Source of the DNA: Ensifer sp. IC3342
GTDB lineage: Bacteria > Pseudomonadota > Alphaproteobacteria > Rhizobiales > Rhizobiaceae
Direction of reading: 5' to 3'
Length of the DNA: 64,000 bases
Assembly: GCF_020193655.1 (NCBI RefSeq)
Contig: NZ_JADYVE010000003.1
Coordinates: forward strand, 248,001-312,000
Part shown: in pieces, positions 42,056-63,848 of the stretch
How positions within the stretch are numbered: position 1 is the first letter of the stretch
Layout: each line of letters starts with the position of its first letter
The notes under the pieces: model-generated
The model's input: only the letters and a program-made list of their open reading frames with translations
The model's database searches: none
What the model was told of the DNA's origin: nothing
Made by a program: the position numbers and the translations under genes

Positions 42056-42700
42056 TCAGAACTCAACGCCCTTCTGCGCCTTGATGCCGGACCGGAAGGG
42101 ATGCTTCACGAGTTCCATCTCGGTCACCAGATCGGCGATCTCGATCAGACCTTCCTTGGCGTTGCGGCCGGTCAGCACGACGTGCGTCATATGGGGCTTT
42201 TCCTCTTTCAGGAACTGCACGACCTCGGCGATATCGATGTAGTCATAGCGCAACGCGATGTTGATTTCGTCGAGCAGCACCATGGAGTTGCGCTCGTCGC
42301 GGATCAGTTCCTTGGCCTTTTCCCAGGCCTTTTCCGCCGCAGCCACGTCGCGCGCGCGGTCCTGCGTTTCCCAGGTGAAACCCTCACCGAGCGTGTAGAA
42401 CCGGCAGATGTCGCCGAAATGCTTCTCGATCAGCTCGCGTTCGCCAGTCTGCATGGCGCCCTTGATGAACTGCACAACGGCGCAAGGCATTCCGTGGGCG
42501 ATGTGACGGAAGATCATGCCGAAGCCGGCGGTCGACTTGCCTTTGCCCTTGCCTGTGTGGACGATGATCAGGCCCTTTTCGTCCGTCTTCGTCGCCATGA
42601 TCTTTTCGCGCGCGGTTTTCTTCTTCGCCATCTTCATGGCGTGGCGAGCTTCGTCCTTTTCCGGCCCGACTTCGCCGCTGTTTACTGTTTCATCGCTCAT
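42056..42700 (-). CDS. cobO: Cob(I)yrinic acid a,c-diamide adenosyltransferase
   Basis: A 214-residue CobO/BtuR-type enzyme adenosylating the corrinoid cobalt with ATP. P-loop-like HTGKGKGKSTAGFG at residues 48-61, EGFTWETQDRARDVAAAE and VLLDEINIALRYDY are diagnostic. Twelve nt downstream of cobN; last of the riboswitch-controlled group cobU-cobW-cobN-cobO. Confidence 0.95.
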   Translation of the reverse strand: MSDETVNSGEVGPEKDEARHAMKMAKKKTAREKIMATKTDEKGLIIVHTGKGKGKSTAGFGMIFRHIAHGMPCAVVQFIKGAMQTGERELIEKHFGDICRFYTLGEGFTWETQDRARDVAAAEKAWEKAKELIRDERNSMVLLDEINIALRYDYIDIAEVVQFLKEEKPHMTHVVLTGRNAKEGLIEIADLVTEMELVKHPFRSGIKAQKGVEF

Positions 42701-42712
42701 GGTGTTCTCTCC

Positions 42713-45700
42713 CTATTCGTTTCCGGTACGCAGCCGAGGGGCGGCCGCTTCACCGGACAGGCTGTTCAGTTCAAAACGTGCCGAGTTGGAGCGCGGATTC
42801 CAGAGGCCGCGATCGATCGCTTCCAGGAAGCGTTCCGACATTTCGGCAAGGGCGGCCGGGTTCTTGTCGCGCAGGAAATCAAGGACCCTCTCGTCGGTGA
42901 TGAATGCGCGGTAGGCGGCCTCGAAATGATGGTCACGGACGGCGCCGGTGGTCGCGGCGAAGGCGAACATGTAATCGACCGTCGCGGCTATCTCGAAGGC
43001 GCCCTTGTAGCCGTGGCGCATGACGCCATCGATCCATTTCGGGTTGACGACGCGGGCACGCACGACGCGGCCGATCTCTTCCTCCAACGAGCGGATCACC
43101 GGCTTTTCCGGGCGCGAATGATCGTTGTGATAGATCGCGGGGCGCCGGTCGCTAAGGTGCTCCGCCGCAGCACTCATGCCGCCCTCGAACTGATAGTAGT
43201 CGTCGCTGTCGAGCAGGTCGTGTTCGCGATTGTCCTGGTTCTGCACGACGGCCTCGATCGACCGCAGCCGTTCCTCGAAAAGTCCGCGCTCGGCCTTGCC
43301 GTCCTCGCCGGCGCCATAGGCATAGCCGCCCCAGGTGAGATAGGCATCGGCGAGATCGTCGCGCTTTTCCCAGCCCCTCTCGTCGATCAGCGCCTGCAGG
43401 CCGGCGCCGTAGGCTCCGGGCTTGGCGCCGAAGACGCGATAGGAGGCGCGCCGCGCCGCTTCCTTCGCCTGGACGCCCTTCTCTTCGAGTCGCTTCGTCT
43501 CGGAACGCATGCGTGCGGCGATCATGTTGTCGGCGTCATCTTCCTCCAAAGCCCCGACAGCGCGGATCGCCTTGTCGAACAGAGCGATCTGCTCCGGAAA
43601 CGCGTCGCGGAAGAAGCCGGAAATGCGGAGCGTGACATCGACGCGCGGACGACCGAGCACCGCCAGCGGCACGATCTCGTAGCCCGTTACACGGCGCGAG
43701 GCCATGTCCCAGACCGGCTTCGCGCCGATCAGCGCCAGCGCCTGGGCGATGTCGTCGCCGCCGGTGCGCATGTTGGAAGTTCCCCAGGCAGTGAGCCCGA
43801 AAGAAGACGGCCATTCGCCATGGTCCTGCAAATAACGGCGGATAAGCAAGTCGGCCGATTTTTTGCCGAGTTCATAGGCCGCCGGCGTCGGCACGGCGCG
43901 GCTGTCGACGGAATAGAAATTGCGACCGGTCGGCAGCACGTCCGGCCGCCCACGCGTCGGAGCGCCGGACGGCCCGGGCGCCACGAAGCGGCCGTCGAGC
44001 CCTGTGAGCAGGCCCTTGATTTCCGCTTCCCCGGAGCCTTCGATCGCGGGTTTTAGCCGCATGTCGATCTCGTCAAGCACAGCGCGGGTGGCCGGCCAGT
44101 CATCAGGACAGGCGATGTCGCCGGAGACCAGCTTCGCCGCGAGGAGTTCGACACGCTCGACCGTATCGCCGGCCGTGCGCCAGGGTGCATCCAAGAGCGA
44201 GACGAGAAGCGCGGGTCTCGGGCCGGTCCACGGTGTAGACATGACGCAGTCGAGGGGATCGAAGGGTTGTGGCTGCGGTACTTGCGCCGAAGCACCTAGC
44301 CCCAAGTCTAACGCAATGGCCCGCTGCAGGCTCTGGTCACCGCCCTCGCCCAGGCCGCGCGGGACGCGGGCGAGCGCCACTGTGAGGTCCGTCAGCAGAC
44401 GCCCTTCCGGCGCCACGCCGAAGATGTGCAGTCCGTCGCGGATCTGCATCTCCTTCAAGTCGCAGAGATAGGCGTCGAGCTTTTCCAGCGCCTTGTCGTC
44501 GCTGTCGGCCTTTTCGATCCCGGCATCATGGTCGAGGCCGATGTCGCAGACGAGGTCGAGGATCTGTCGGCTCAACAGCCTGAGCCGTCGCGGGTCACCG
44601 CCCGCCGCCTCGTAATATTCGTCGACCAGTGCCTCCAGATCCTTGAGCGGCCCATAGGATTCCGCCCGCGTCAAAGGCGGCGTCAGATGGTCGATGATAA
44701 CGGCGCTGGTGCGGCGCTTGGCCTGTGTGCCCTCGCCCGGATCGTTGACGATGAAGGGGTAAAGATGCGGCGTCGGGCCGAAGACCGCCTCGGGATAACA
44801 ATTCTCCGAAAGCGCCAGTGCCTTGCCGGGCAGCCATTCGAGATTGCCGTGCTTGCCCATGTGGATGATGGCGTCGGCTTTGAAGACATGCCGCAGGAAG
44901 GCGTAGAAGGCGAGATAGCCATGCGGCGGCACGAGGTCCGGCGCGTGGTAGGTTTCCTTCGGATCGATGTTATAGCCGCGCGCCGGCTGGATGCCGACGA
45001 GGACGTCGCCGAAGCGCGCGAGTGGCAGCCCGAAGGCGCCGTCAAGGAAGGATGGATCGGCTTCGGGATCGCCCCAGCGCGCCGTTACCTCCTCCTGAAT
45101 CTGCCGCGGAAGAGAGCCGAGGAAGTCTTGGTATTGCGCGAGCGAAATGACCTCGCGGATTTCGCGGTCGCGGCTTGCCGCATTGGTCGGCCCGGCCATC
45201 AGAAAACGCATAAGCGCGTCGCCGTCCTCGGGAAGGTCACCGACGGGATAGCCTTCCGCCGCCATTGCCTTCAGAACCTCGATGGTGCCGGCCGGCGTGT
45301 CGAGGCCGACGCCGTTGCCGAGGCGTCCGTCGCGGTTGGGATAATTGGCCATGACGATGGCAACGCGGCGCGCCTCGGGCCTTGCCCGACGCAGCCGCGC
45401 CCAGTTGGCGGCAAGCCGCGCGGCAAAGCGGACGCGATCGGCAAGCGGTTCGTGGCCGACGATGTTGGCTTCCACCGCCGGATCGTAGACGGACGCCGCT
45501 TTGAACGAGACGGCACGGGAGAGAATGCGGCCATCCACCTCGGGCAGTGCGACGTTCATGCCGAGATCGCGCGCCATCAGCCCCTGCGGCGAAGCCTCCC
45601 AGGCGGCGCGAGAGGAACCGGAAAAGATCACCTGCAATACTGGCGCGCCGGTCGATTCGAGCACCGTCGGCTGACGATCGGCACCGGGCGCGGAAACCGC

Positions 45701-46729
45701 AAAGCCGGTTGCGTTCATCACCACGTCCGGTGCGGATTCGGCGAAGATCGCCTGCAGCGTGCCGATCGAGACCTGATCCTTGAGGCTCGAAACGAAGACC
45801 GGCAGCGCCCGCATGCCTTCGACAGCAAGCGCCTCGATCAAGGCCTCGACGGGTTTCGTTTCGCCGCTCTGGACGAGGGCGCGGTAGAAGCAGATGGCAA
45901 CGGTGGGTTTGCCGGCATCCGCTTGAGGGATACCCCCCACAAGGGGGGAGATCGGCAAGCGGCGGCCGCTCGTTTCTCCAACTCCGTCGCTCGTTTCCTT
46001 AATGCCGTCGGAAATGGCGCCTCCTTGAGCAACCGGCCGCTTCTCCGTGATTTCGACCGCCGTTAAGGAACCAGCTTCAGCATCCCGGTTCTCCCCCCTG
46101 GTGGGGGGGATGTCCGGCAGGACAGAGGGGGGTGTTCCCGGCAGACCCGCAATCGCACGCCACCGGTCAACTCCGATCACACCCTCGCCCGGCCACCAGA
46201 TGCCTGCCTTCAAAAGCGGCCTTGCCGGCTGCGGCTTCTCGCTGCCGGCAATCAGCGCCTCGGCATAGTCGAGGAAGAGCCCGGCATTATCGGCGCCGCC
46301 CTCGGTGAAATAGGCCCAGACGCGCTCGCGGTCTTCCGCTGATACCGTGGAAAACGGATGGAGGCCCGGGTCCGGCTTGTCATCGCCTGGAAGCACCGCA
46401 ATCTGGAACTTGCCCATCACCGCCGCCGCATGCAGCGCCTCCAGCACGTAGCGGAAATAGCTGGCGCCGCCGAGCGGGCGCACGACGATCAGCTTCGCAT
46501 GCCGCGCCGTGCGCTCGACATAGGTGTCGACCGACATCGGATGCATCAGGTTCATCAGGCTGGCGATGCGCAGCGTTTTCGCCCACGTCCGCCGCCCGTA
46601 GGCCGCGGCAATCGAGGCAAGCTCGGTGTCGGCGGCCGACAGGAACAGGATGTCGGCCGGGCTTTGCCCGAGATCGATCGCCTCGTTGCCATCGGCGATC
46701 GTGCCTTTCTGGGCGAGAAGCAGATGCAT
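42713..46729 (-). CDS. cobN: Aerobic cobaltochelatase subunit CobN, with an in-frame repeat-derived insertion
   Basis: A 1338-residue large subunit of the ATP-dependent cobaltochelatase (with CobS and CobT, not in the window) that inserts cobalt into hydrogenobyrinic acid a,c-diamide. Recognisable: IWWPGEGVIGVDRWRAI near 177-192, TVAICFYRALVQSGE at 276-290, HMGKHGNLEWLPGKALALS in the middle. Relatives are about 1275 residues, so this one is roughly 60 longer. The extra part is residues ~196-272, low in family character and encoded by palindromic repeats also found between genes at 59.9-60.1 kb. The frame is intact throughout, and the flanking blocks join smoothly. Confidence 0.93.
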   Translation of the reverse strand: MHLLLAQKGTIADGNEAIDLGQSPADILFLSAADTELASIAAAYGRRTWAKTLRIASLMNLMHPMSVDTYVERTARHAKLIVVRPLGGASYFRYVLEALHAAAVMGKFQIAVLPGDDKPDPGLHPFSTVSAEDRERVWAYFTEGGADNAGLFLDYAEALIAGSEKPQPARPLLKAGIWWPGEGVIGVDRWRAIAGLPGTPPSVLPDIPPTRGENRDAEAGSLTAVEITEKRPVAQGGAISDGIKETSDGVGETSGRRLPISPLVGGIPQADAGKPTVAICFYRALVQSGETKPVEALIEALAVEGMRALPVFVSSLKDQVSIGTLQAIFAESAPDVVMNATGFAVSAPGADRQPTVLESTGAPVLQVIFSGSSRAAWEASPQGLMARDLGMNVALPEVDGRILSRAVSFKAASVYDPAVEANIVGHEPLADRVRFAARLAANWARLRRARPEARRVAIVMANYPNRDGRLGNGVGLDTPAGTIEVLKAMAAEGYPVGDLPEDGDALMRFLMAGPTNAASRDREIREVISLAQYQDFLGSLPRQIQEEVTARWGDPEADPSFLDGAFGLPLARFGDVLVGIQPARGYNIDPKETYHAPDLVPPHGYLAFYAFLRHVFKADAIIHMGKHGNLEWLPGKALALSENCYPEAVFGPTPHLYPFIVNDPGEGTQAKRRTSAVIIDHLTPPLTRAESYGPLKDLEALVDEYYEAAGGDPRRLRLLSRQILDLVCDIGLDHDAGIEKADSDDKALEKLDAYLCDLKEMQIRDGLHIFGVAPEGRLLTDLTVALARVPRGLGEGGDQSLQRAIALDLGLGASAQVPQPQPFDPLDCVMSTPWTGPRPALLVSLLDAPWRTAGDTVERVELLAAKLVSGDIACPDDWPATRAVLDEIDMRLKPAIEGSGEAEIKGLLTGLDGRFVAPGPSGAPTRGRPDVLPTGRNFYSVDSRAVPTPAAYELGKKSADLLIRRYLQDHGEWPSSFGLTAWGTSNMRTGGDDIAQALALIGAKPVWDMASRRVTGYEIVPLAVLGRPRVDVTLRISGFFRDAFPEQIALFDKAIRAVGALEEDDADNMIAARMRSETKRLEEKGVQAKEAARRASYRVFGAKPGAYGAGLQALIDERGWEKRDDLADAYLTWGGYAYGAGEDGKAERGLFEERLRSIEAVVQNQDNREHDLLDSDDYYQFEGGMSAAAEHLSDRRPAIYHNDHSRPEKPVIRSLEEEIGRVVRARVVNPKWIDGVMRHGYKGAFEIAATVDYMFAFAATTGAVRDHHFEAAYRAFITDERVLDFLRDKNPAALAEMSERFLEAIDRGLWNPRSNSARFELNSLSGEAAAPRLRTGNE
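45914..46144. repeat. Palindromic-repeat insertion inside cobN
   Basis: About 231 nt in-frame within cobN. The left end carries CACAAGGGGGGAGATCGGCA; the right end carries GTCCGGCAGGACAGAGGGG after a CCCCCC/GGGGGG hairpin. The same unit in the same orientation lies at 60067-60120 and its inverse at 59939-59985. Contributes ~77 residues to CobN, including TPPSVLPDIPPTRGEN and RRLPISPLVGGIP. Confidence 0.8.
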
Positions 46730-46740
46730 TTTCTATCCGA

Positions 46741-47805
46741 TCACACCAACGCCGAGATCGCAGCGCGTATGGCGGCCTCGTCCATGTCGTGGAGGCCGAT
46801 GACGACGAGGCGCGTGCCGCGCGCTTCGCCCGCCGCCCAGGCCCGGTCGTAATATTGATCGATACGGCTGCCGACCGCCTGGATCAGGAGGCGCATCGGC
46901 TTGCCGGGAACGTCGGCGAAGCCCTTGAGGCGCAGCACATCGTGCTCGGTGATCACGCCCTTCAGCCGGTCGATGAAGGCGGCCGGATCGCTGACTGCTC
47001 CGAGTTCGACGACAAAACTGTCGAATTCGTCGTGGTCGTGCTCCTCGCCGGCCTCGTGCTCCATCTCGTGATGCGACTTGCGGTTGGCGATCTCCCCCTC
47101 GGTGCCGACGCCGAGGCCGAGCAGAATGGCGGCGGCCACCTCGCCGTTCTTCGCCTCGATCATCGTCGGCTTGCGGCTGATACGGGAAGCCACCTCGTCG
47201 CGCACCGACTTCAAGCCCGAGGCGTCGATCAGGTCGGTCTTGTTGAGAACGATGAGGTCGGCGGCGGTGAGCTGGTCCTCGAAAAGCTCTTCGAGCGGGC
47301 TTTCGTGGTCGAGGTTGTCGTCGTTGACGCGCAGCGCATCGACCTTATCGTGGTCGTCCGCAAAGCGGCCGGCGGCAACCGCCGCACTGTCGACGACGGT
47401 CACGACGCCATCGACCGTCACTTCGCTGCGGATATCCGGCCAGTTGAAGGCGGCAACCAGCGGCTGCGGCAGGGCGAGCCCCGAGGTTTCGATAACGATG
47501 TGGTCGGGCCGGTTCTCTCGCTCGAGCAGTTTCGTCATGGTCGGGATGAAATCATCGGCGACCGTGCAGCAGATGCAGCCATTGGTGAGTTCAATGATAT
47601 CTTCCTCGGAGCAGGCCTCCGCACCGCAGCCCTTCAGCACATCGCCGTCTACGCCGAGATCGCCGAACTCGTTGATGATCAGCGCGATGCGCTTGCCGTC
47701 GGCATTCTGCAGCAGATTGCGGATCATCGTTGTCTTGCCGGCGCCGAGAAACCCGGTGATGACGGTGGCCGGGATCTTGCCCTGCTGGGCCTTTGCGAGT
47801 GTCAT
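46741..47805 (-). CDS. cobW: CobW, COG0523-type GTPase metallochaperone
   Basis: A 354-residue G3E GTPase. Walker A GFLGAGKT at residues 18-25, the metal-binding CICC at 77-80 and an acidic/His-rich stretch (EHEAGEEHDHDEFD) in the middle. CobW is thought to deliver Co(II) for corrin ring metallation by CobNST. Eleven nt before cobN and 3 nt after cobU, so tightly in the operon. Confidence 0.94.
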   Translation of the reverse strand: MTLAKAQQGKIPATVITGFLGAGKTTMIRNLLQNADGKRIALIINEFGDLGVDGDVLKGCGAEACSEEDIIELTNGCICCTVADDFIPTMTKLLERENRPDHIVIETSGLALPQPLVAAFNWPDIRSEVTVDGVVTVVDSAAVAAGRFADDHDKVDALRVNDDNLDHESPLEELFEDQLTAADLIVLNKTDLIDASGLKSVRDEVASRISRKPTMIEAKNGEVAAAILLGLGVGTEGEIANRKSHHEMEHEAGEEHDHDEFDSFVVELGAVSDPAAFIDRLKGVITEHDVLRLKGFADVPGKPMRLLIQAVGSRIDQYYDRAWAAGEARGTRLVVIGLHDMDEAAIRAAISALV

Positions 47806-47808
47806 GGA

Positions 47809-48336
47809 TCAACCCTTCATTTTCAGCGGCAATCCGGCCGCGACAAAGTAAACTTCGGCGGATTTCTCCGCTACGATCTGGTGGAGGCGGCCGGCATGGT
47901 CGCGGAAATCGCGCGCCATCCGGTTTTCCGGAACGATGCCAAGGCCGACTTCGTTGGAAACGAAGATGAGGCGCGCCCGCGCCTCGGGCAGGAAGGCGGC
48001 GAGCGCCGCGAATTCGGCAGCCATGTCGCGCTCTTCCATCATCAGGTTGGTGACCCAAAGCGTCAGGCAATCGACGAGGATCGCGCGCGCCGGATCGTCG
48101 ATCCGGCGAAGCAGGGCGACGAGATCGAGAGGCTCCTCATGCGTCGTCCAGCCTTTGCCGCGCCGCGTGTCCTGGTGATGGCGGATGCGATCGCGCATTT
48201 CGTCGTCCCAGGCCCGCCCTGTGGCGACGTAATGCATCGGCAGCCCGGAGGCTTCGACGAGCTTTTCCGCGAAGGAGGATTTGCCGGAACGGGCGCCGCC
48301 AAGCACGATAATCGGCCCGGCACTGGAAATGGACAT
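47809..48336 (-). CDS. cobU: Adenosylcobinamide kinase / guanylyltransferase
   Basis: A 175-residue bifunctional enzyme (CobU, called CobP in Pseudomonas denitrificans) that phosphorylates adenosylcobinamide and then makes its GDP derivative. P-loop GGARSGKS at residues 13-20, [20 protein letters not shown] with the guanylylated His region, and [13 protein letters not shown] are typical. Ten nt after the stop of a 25-codon ORF and behind the B12 riboswitch. Confidence 0.94.
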
Positions 48337-48346
48337 GCGGCCAGCC

Positions 48347-48424
48347 TCAGTTCACCGACGGCTTCGACCGGAAACGGGCGTGCAACACGCCTGTCGCGCG
48401 TTCAAGAGAGAATTCGTAAGCCAC
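48347..48424 (-). CDS. 25-codon ORF between the cobalamin riboswitch and cobU
   Basis: GTG 48424 is preceded by CGGAGGTTGTC, an excellent ribosome site; the peptide starts [20 protein letters not shown] and ends KPSVN. Its stop is 10 nt before the cobU ATG, and cobU itself has only a weak GAGG within that gap. The geometry suggests that the riboswitch acts on this ORF and that cobU translation is coupled to it. Basic, no membrane helix. Not recognised; a coincidental ORF cannot be excluded. Confidence 0.5.
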
Positions 48425-48483
48425 GACAACCTCCGTGCTGGCATCGGGGATTGGTGCCCCCTTCGGGCGGAATGCCCTGACGG

Positions 48484-59938: not shown

Positions 59939-60121
59939 TACCCCCCTCTGGCCTGCCGGCCCTCTCCCACACAGGGGGGAGATTCGCTGGATGCGCCGCC
60001 TGTGCGCCAGCCCATCTCCGGCTGAGAGGCTGGCGCGATCGAGAAGAGGAACCGAGGAGCTCGTGTCTTGCCGATCTCCCCCTTGTGGGGGAGATGGCCC
60101 GGCAGGCCAGAGGGGGGTGCC
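59939..60121. repeat. Inverted pair of palindromic repeat units (MITE-like)
   Basis: Left unit ends CACACAGGGGGGAGATTC and begins with CCCCCCTCTGGCCTGCCGG; right unit reads CTTGCCGATCTCCCCCTTGT and ends CCGGCAGGCCAGAGGGGGGT. They are inverted copies of about 45 nt separated by about 80 nt. Same family as the insertion inside cobN. Fills most of the 326-nt gap between the hypothetical gene and the VWA gene. Confidence 0.75.
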
Positions 60122-63678: not shown

Positions 63679-63730
63679 AGCCCCTCATCTGCCTGCCGGC
63701 ACCTTCTCCCCGCAAGCGGGGCGAAGGGAC
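63679..63730. repeat. REP-like palindrome unit A
   Basis: CCCCTCATCTGCCTGCCGGC followed by a TTCTCCCCGC / GCGGGGCGAA hairpin. Paired with the related hairpin at 63798. Confidence 0.55.
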
Positions 63731-63797
63731 CCTCCGCGGCGGCTCGCTCGGCTAGCCGAACTGGAAGAAGGGACAAGCCGCGCGCCCTTTTAAGTCC

Positions 63798-63821
63798 CCT
63801 CTCCCCGCGTGCGGGGAGAGG
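63798..63821. repeat. REP-like palindrome unit B
   Basis: Perfect CCTCTCCCCGC / GCGGGGAGAGG hairpin followed by GTCAGGGTGAGGGG. A widespread type of alphaproteobacterial intergenic hairpin; ends transcripts in the convergent or tandem gap before 63849. Confidence 0.6.
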
Positions 63822-63848
63822 GTCAGGGTGAGGGGCAATCCGGGTCGG

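Follow-up and report, generated by a model that had tools for sequence, protein, structure and literature searches.

The cobN gene of Ensifer sp. IC3342, which encodes the cobaltochelatase subunit CobN, contains a decayed palindromic element that is read in frame as part of the protein. The reading we favour, with a probability of about 0.8, is that a non-autonomous palindromic element is tolerated in disordered linkers of CobN, from which it is lost in frame and in which it is sometimes inverted in place. The gene lies in a 64,000-nucleotide stretch of the genome, referred to here as the window, whose relevant features are collected in Table 1. An earlier interpretation of the same DNA (the sequence-only reading) had proposed a palindromic-repeat element inserted in frame inside cobN. 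Its repeat units are real, the in-frame element is confirmed and the interpretation is supported overall; a second loop, other element families, a fixed reading phase, inversions and in-frame decay go beyond it.

Table 1. Features of the window that bear on the CobN element (positions are those of the window)
Feature	Position	Strand	Remarks
cobN, cobaltochelatase subunit CobN, host gene	42713..46729	-	1338 aa; PF02514, TIGR02257
In-frame palindromic element of family 1, CobN site A	45930..46134	-	residues ~199-267; ~205 bp, decayed
Left arm (coding sense)	46090..46134	-	reads TPPSVLPDIPPTRGE; R1 arm-model match G000:C49:294086-294134
Interior, 138 nt	45952..46089	-	akin to the interiors found at site A in L151, L154, L160 and others
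Truncated right arm	45930..45951	-	weak R1 match 293916-293955, E 0.06
Intergenic two-armed relative of the CobN element	59939..60119	.	repeat matches and arm model
CobN site B, second loop	44240..44335	-	residues 799-830, ~811; long insert absent from the window, present in numerous relatives

The host gene is a single, uninterrupted open frame, and its product matches the TIGR02257 equivalog with 1784.7 bits (cut-off 822.05); in Foldseek, the CobN of M. tuberculosis (7c6o) ranked first. As had been proposed, the inserted segment, described there as of low family character, lies between conserved CobN blocks. The NCBIfam TIGR02257 (CobN) match is split in two around it, the better stretch covering residues 274-1328, and the segment is extra relative to the solved CobN 9uk9, because 9uk9 aligns only to residues 1-186 and 270-1325. 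The sequence-only reading had thus placed the element correctly inside cobN, but the extent it gave (45914-46144) has to be narrowed to that of Table 1. Very long antisense ORFs are also present on the plus strand (42101-44056, 44426-46066 and 46789-48480), opposite cobN, cobW and their neighbours; such ORFs are a tendency of GC-rich codon usage.

The kinship with the intergenic copy is illustrated by two matches: positions 46090-46134 are 80% identical to 60075-60119 in direct orientation, and positions 46094-46133 are 83% identical to 59940-59979 in inverted orientation. Within cobN, 45930-45951 and 46090-46111 are 91% complementary. The right arm reads ISPLVGG in the window and ISPLVGEMSGRTEGG at locus L160, relative to which an in-frame gap of 8 codons (24 nt) has removed the outer half of the window's right arm. 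RNA folding of the window element gave a modest gain over shuffled sequences (z -1.9; 7 of 200 shuffles were equally good), and the copy at the same site of L144, with long, near-perfect arms, folds at -132.3 kcal/mol (z -13.3). The window copy is decayed.

We also considered whether the insert could be a known protein domain or a described RNA. The first was rejected, since the L144 insert peptide has no match in Pfam and neither it nor the window insert peptide has one in NCBIfam; the second was rejected since the window has no Rfam match at gathering scores. Instead, structure prediction, which had been suggested as a check, points to a disordered linker: in an AlphaFold2 model of residues 1-620 (37 sequences), the 10-residue mean pLDDT was 30-47 over residues 201-270, against 84 and 87 in the flanking blocks. 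In this model, the insert is placed between a helix (187-193) and a strand (276-282). For an insert at site B, pLDDT was 24-29 in a weaker model (pTM 0.48).

To place the insert among its relatives, we gathered 113 CobN genes, namely that of the window, the best 80 named loci among the matches listed and those of 32 congeneric genomes. A start and motif filter removed L026, L042, L065 and L073, leaving 109 aligned CobNs, of which 105 were distinct after removal of identical proteins; a site was considered filled when it held at least 20 extra residues. Insertions of at least 12 residues among the 109 CobNs fall at core positions 193-203 (site A, main block in 41 sequences) and 738 (site B, 56 sequences), the sole other one being a 12-residue C-terminal extension. 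Site A is filled in 38 and site B in 48 of the 105 distinct proteins. Most of these CobNs lack the segment at site A (67/105 without an insert of at least 20 residues), and the filled copies evolve near-neutrally; protein-level conservation across the majority of homologues, which would have refuted the sequence-only reading, was therefore not observed. The length of rhizobial CobN varies between about 1240 and 1445 residues, and the element inserts account for much of this spread.

The presence or absence of an insert changed at least 26 times at site A and at least 24 times at site B on a quick maximum-likelihood CobN tree, built with insert columns excluded and with 28 of its 102 inner branches poorly supported. 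These are state changes and not insertions, because losses are common and one old insertion may underlie many filled sites of a genus. The 33 Sinorhizobium genomes contain 32 inserts with at least 40 extra residues, 16 at each site.

The inserts belong to several families, which were assigned from DNA and arm patterns with mismatches allowed, so that single assignments may be wrong. In family 1, the window's kind, ACCCCCCTCTG arms face inward, and a variant has the arms in reverse order; family 2 is characterized by CCCTCCCCAACCCCTCCCC. Mosaic inserts combine a family-2 left arm with a family-1 right arm, and arms of two families occur in the site-B inserts of L031, L032, L033, L035, L057 and L061. 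A further family is one that we presume to be, and label as, RIME-like. Family identity changed at least 7 times at site A (36 of 38 inserts classified) and at least 11 times at site B (44 of 48), and some loops hold two families next to each other. Different, unrelated palindromic families occupy the same two CobN loops. At site A of L082, the 160 extra residues are composed of adjoining RIME-like and family-1 segments. In L034, L036 and L038, the interiors at site A and site B resemble each other (75-82% within a genome), suggesting copying between both loops of one gene. Moreover, the window has a second palindromic pair at 63691-63823, of the CTTCTCCCCGC type with 30-nt arms that are 87% complementary, which resembles the RIME-like CobN inserts.

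The element is present in many copies beyond cobN. A DNA search of the 7.42-Mb genome of the strain yielded 24 matches (23 when the query is not counted), with identities of 80-94% and E <= 2.5e-4 throughout, and the arm covariance model gave 39 matches at E <= 1. Grouped by eye, the latter resolve into 11 copies that clearly have two arms, four arms clustered in ftsY, a weak pair and isolated arms. The 11 two-armed copies of this genome, and the z of -13.3 for the intact copy of L144, mark a short palindromic element present in many copies, as RPE-type elements are. A profile of the insert peptides matched at E <= 1e-8 in 37 of 151 genomes drawn from the family, and the search of the genus gave a match in 32 of 33 genomes. 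In the best place in each of 47 plasmid records, the annotation was 'none' or the record was unannotated. The idea that small ORFs of the element are annotated as 'propionyl-coenzyme A carboxylase alpha polypeptide' was not supported and plays no part here.

The element has arms of ~45 nt and measures 110-299 bp from arm end to arm end, that is, terminal inverted repeats with no room for a transposase, as in MITEs. It has probably transposed, and such mobility, which we infer, would require that it be moved in trans by some transposase. No transposase-bearing partner was seen in the strain's own draft genome; among its R1 matches with E < 0.001, no pair of arms is separated by 0.7-3 kb, although diverged ends would escape this search. 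Flanks of family-1 copies read YA...TR by eye, possibly as part of the arm ends, and no longer target-site duplication was seen by eye in them. Just ahead of an ORF resembling a lytic transglycosylase (named by eye), we observed an element copy (L187, G000:C27:1305550-1305645) whose ATG, within GEMPGRAEGG, could be the start codon for the signal peptide of this ORF.

CobN is not the only protein concerned. Among the matches listed, stop-free frames of at least 500 residues belong at least 29 times to CobN, at least 10 times to PbpC, once to the strand opposite PbpC and once to another gene; it should be noted that this search favours CobN, because the profile was built from CobN inserts. We read 30 PbpC N-termini (L282-L311) from the 33 genomes, 3 of which were without the locus. 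The N-terminal tail carries the right arm in 15 of the 30 congeners, and 14 of these also carry the left arm (13 by a strict pattern and L283 by eye), ahead of the membrane segment. PbpC relatives free of the element keep similar flanks. The PbpC tails of L284 and L306 look like remnants of the element. Further coding copies in the strain's own genome, for which the sequence-only reading had proposed a search, were found in FtsY, where the N-terminal region of a 609-aa frame (L275, G000:C93:234400-238800) contains four family-1 arms ordered as two outward-facing pairs. The element is thus in frame in unrelated protein genes, at CobN sites A and B, in the PbpC tail and in the N-terminal region of FtsY, and the PbpC and FtsY segments are variable N-terminal parts, as tolerance predicts.

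The long Sinorhizobium inserts are all read in one phase, PPSxLPxISPTRGE...ISPLVGEMPGRAEGG, and so is the N-terminal tail of PbpC. The pattern PS[VAG][LV]P is matched by 31 of the 32 inserts of the genus, and the exception, site B of L151, reads PLSALP in the same phase. Exceptions in phase are found outside the genus (e.g., site A of L064 and part of site B of L050). The reading phase is not dictated by stops, because the arm consensus and the arms checked contain none in any of the six frames. The arm peptides are proline-rich. From arm end to arm end, 28 of 28 measured CobN inserts of the genus leave a remainder of 2 modulo 3, whereas remainders 0, 1 and 2 are found in 3, 2 and 3 of the 8 non-coding copies that were identified in the strain's own genome by DNA alone (copies recovered through the peptide profile favour remainder 2 and were excluded from this comparison). 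Tolerance alone does not account for a single phase at site A, site B and PbpC, and this counts against our main reading.

The concentration on two loops could also reflect sequence-directed targeting, a possible but rather unlikely explanation, in which a DNA motif or remnants of old palindromes would be preferred and the loops would be hotspots of insertion, not only places of survival. Several families do share the two loops, sometimes as neighbours (site A of L082, L057 and L061), and palindrome remnants do occur. However, apart from YA...TR, which may belong to the arm ends, no common target was seen by eye in the flanks of family 1, and variable N-terminal segments are likewise the hosts in PbpC and FtsY, as expected under tolerance. 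We prefer tolerance of a short, non-autonomous rhizobial element, with two inverted arms of ~45 nt around an interior of about 70-195 nt, that lies in frame in a linker. CobN would then be a safe harbour, since reading through its two loops would cost little, and insertions that would be fatal to other genes may survive there.

The interiors of the elements occur in two orientations. They were readable in 82 of 94 elements and form a network of 32 copies and 119 matches, in which no match conflicts in sign; 26 copies are plus, including the window copy, copies from both CobN sites and six PbpC copies, and 6 are minus. The clearest case is site A of L057 and L061, neighbours on the tree. Their interiors are 45% identical in their present orientations but 76% once one of them is inverted, a value close to the neutral expectation (core dS 0.248), while their arms are identical and their flanks, including an adjoining RIME-like piece, near-identical (314 of 351 positions identical overall). 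On the tree, orientation changed at least 3 times among 12 A inserts and at least 2 times among 14 B inserts of Sinorhizobium, and at least once among 4 A inserts of the Ciceribacter group. The segment between the inverted repeats is thus found in both orientations at one locus, as in invertible DNA (invertons), but between species only. We infer a flip in place, which is simpler than replacement by another copy, and recombination or template switching between the arms may have produced it. For the window copy compared with L144, L152 and L161, the network sign is consistent and the pairwise signal weak; the inverted score of the window against L144 was equalled by 72 of 500 shuffles and is not significant alone.

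We further wondered whether CobN carries an invertible selfish cassette, either strand of which is translated. The arms would recombine frequently, both orientations would be found within populations, possibly by switching, each locus would offer two loop peptides, and the two loops would be lasting landing places for several families. The repeated orientation changes on the tree, the network free of conflicts and the similarity of opposite-orientation interiors (77% for site B of L158 and L159, E 6e-22; 75% for site B of L141 and L142, 3e-20; 77% for site A of L057 and L061, 2e-19) are what such a cassette would leave behind. In addition, when inserts were inverted in silico, 38 of 51 retained an open frame, and nearly all of these kept their arm peptides (the comparison covers those of the 77 CobN inserts in which both arms could be located, which leaves aside 26, the window's included). 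Codon shuffles would, however, give 33.6 (sd 2.7), so that an excess is not clear, and selection for openness on both strands is not claimed for this reason. Given that the orientation data come from one genome per species and that the comparison of the window with L144 alone is not significant, we find frequent inversion within populations doubtful, and retain occasional inversion of a tolerated element.

The inserted peptide evolves with almost no constraint, in contrast to the strongly constrained remainder of CobN. The core has a dN/dS of 0.06-0.09 in 16 of 16 species pairs, and the inserts, whose values are noisy as they are short, have 0.39-1.44 over 22 comparisons (0.7-1.2 in 17 of them). 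Three of these values, for window/L144, window/L152 and L057/L061 at site A, are invalid since the interiors are mutually inverted, and the other 19 cover the same range. Loss has also left traces. In 9 of the 34 short sites of the genus, the arm match is longer than in 95% of control segments from the same gene, where ~2 would be expected; the other 25 show no arm trace above controls. The remnants point to in-frame deletion, and site A of L141 resembles by eye what a deletion bounded by short C-runs would leave of a filled site like that of L140.

A useful insert is accordingly very improbable. Here, the hairpins and proline-rich arms would slow the ribosome at domain boundaries of this 1300-residue protein, or the loop would bind a partner subunit. 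The very stable fold at site A of L144 and the proline-rich arm peptides would suit such a role, but evolution is near-neutral with many state changes and remnants, the window hairpin is decayed, and 67 of 105 homologues are without a long insert at site A. The data are explicable without any benefit to the enzyme. Finally, ordinary variation in linker length, to which the differences of several residues among short loops might be ascribed, can be practically dismissed, and assembly error and chance likeness to repeats are rejected as very unlikely, given the genome-wide matches at 80-94% identity, the long near-perfect arms of the intact L144 copy and the long inserts that 16 of the 33 CobNs of Sinorhizobium, that of the window among them, carry at this site; the frameshift considered by the sequence-only reading is very unlikely for the same reasons.

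The best-known source of protein-coding palindromic elements is Rickettsia. As summarised in PMC10969869, the rickettsial elements (RPE; Ogata et al. 2000, 2002) are palindromic, ~150 bp long and in frame in unrelated metabolic genes, comprise several families and, by prediction, can be accommodated by the protein fold. The resemblance to RPE that the sequence-only reading had pointed out holds for behaviour, by analogy: the CobN elements are likewise palindromic, present in many copies and several families, and in frame in unrelated genes. Unlike RPE as outlined there, they occur in Rhizobiaceae, are GC-rich, have two large inverted arms and an interior in both orientations, and in several genera cluster in the same two loops of a single protein. 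Delihas (2007, PMC2759123) presents MITEs and enterobacterial repeat units, which are also small and non-autonomous with inverted repeats, and are found inside ORFs or fused to them. Relative to that account, the repeated landing place in one enzyme and the inversion of the interior are features of the CobN elements.

Two further groups of repeats are comparable. The Rhizobium-specific intergenic mosaic element (RIME; Osteras 1995, as cited in PMC2245857 and PMC2873474) is rhizobial too, and some site-B inserts are mosaic in having arms of two families; RIME is named as intergenic, whereas the CobN elements lie within a protein. The REP elements with GTAG and CGTC tags described in PMC3733652 are short palindromic repeats, as are the arms of the CobN elements. 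In contrast, our arm consensus begins TACCCCCCTCTG, and each ~45-nt arm is part of a larger two-armed element; neither tag is present in the consensus TACCCCCCTCTGCCCTGCCGGGCATCTCCCCCACAAGGGGGGAGATCGG. Among the matches listed for open-licence PMC literature (titles and starts of abstracts; subscription papers lie outside this set), there is no report of such elements within CobN or any other rhizobial protein. What appears to be new is that different families in different genera reuse the same two loops, and that the interior is inverted between arms that are themselves coding.

In this case, DNA that looks parasitic is incorporated into a protein while the reading frame remains unbroken. The bacteria concerned are free-living and amenable to genetics, and the two loops of this enzyme have switched state dozens of times in them. 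How the element inserts, is tolerated, inverts and decays can therefore be compared between species, and is testable in the laboratory. Moreover, segments derived from the element should not be taken for domains of CobN, and the length that it confers on the protein matters for choosing CobN versions in B12 production.
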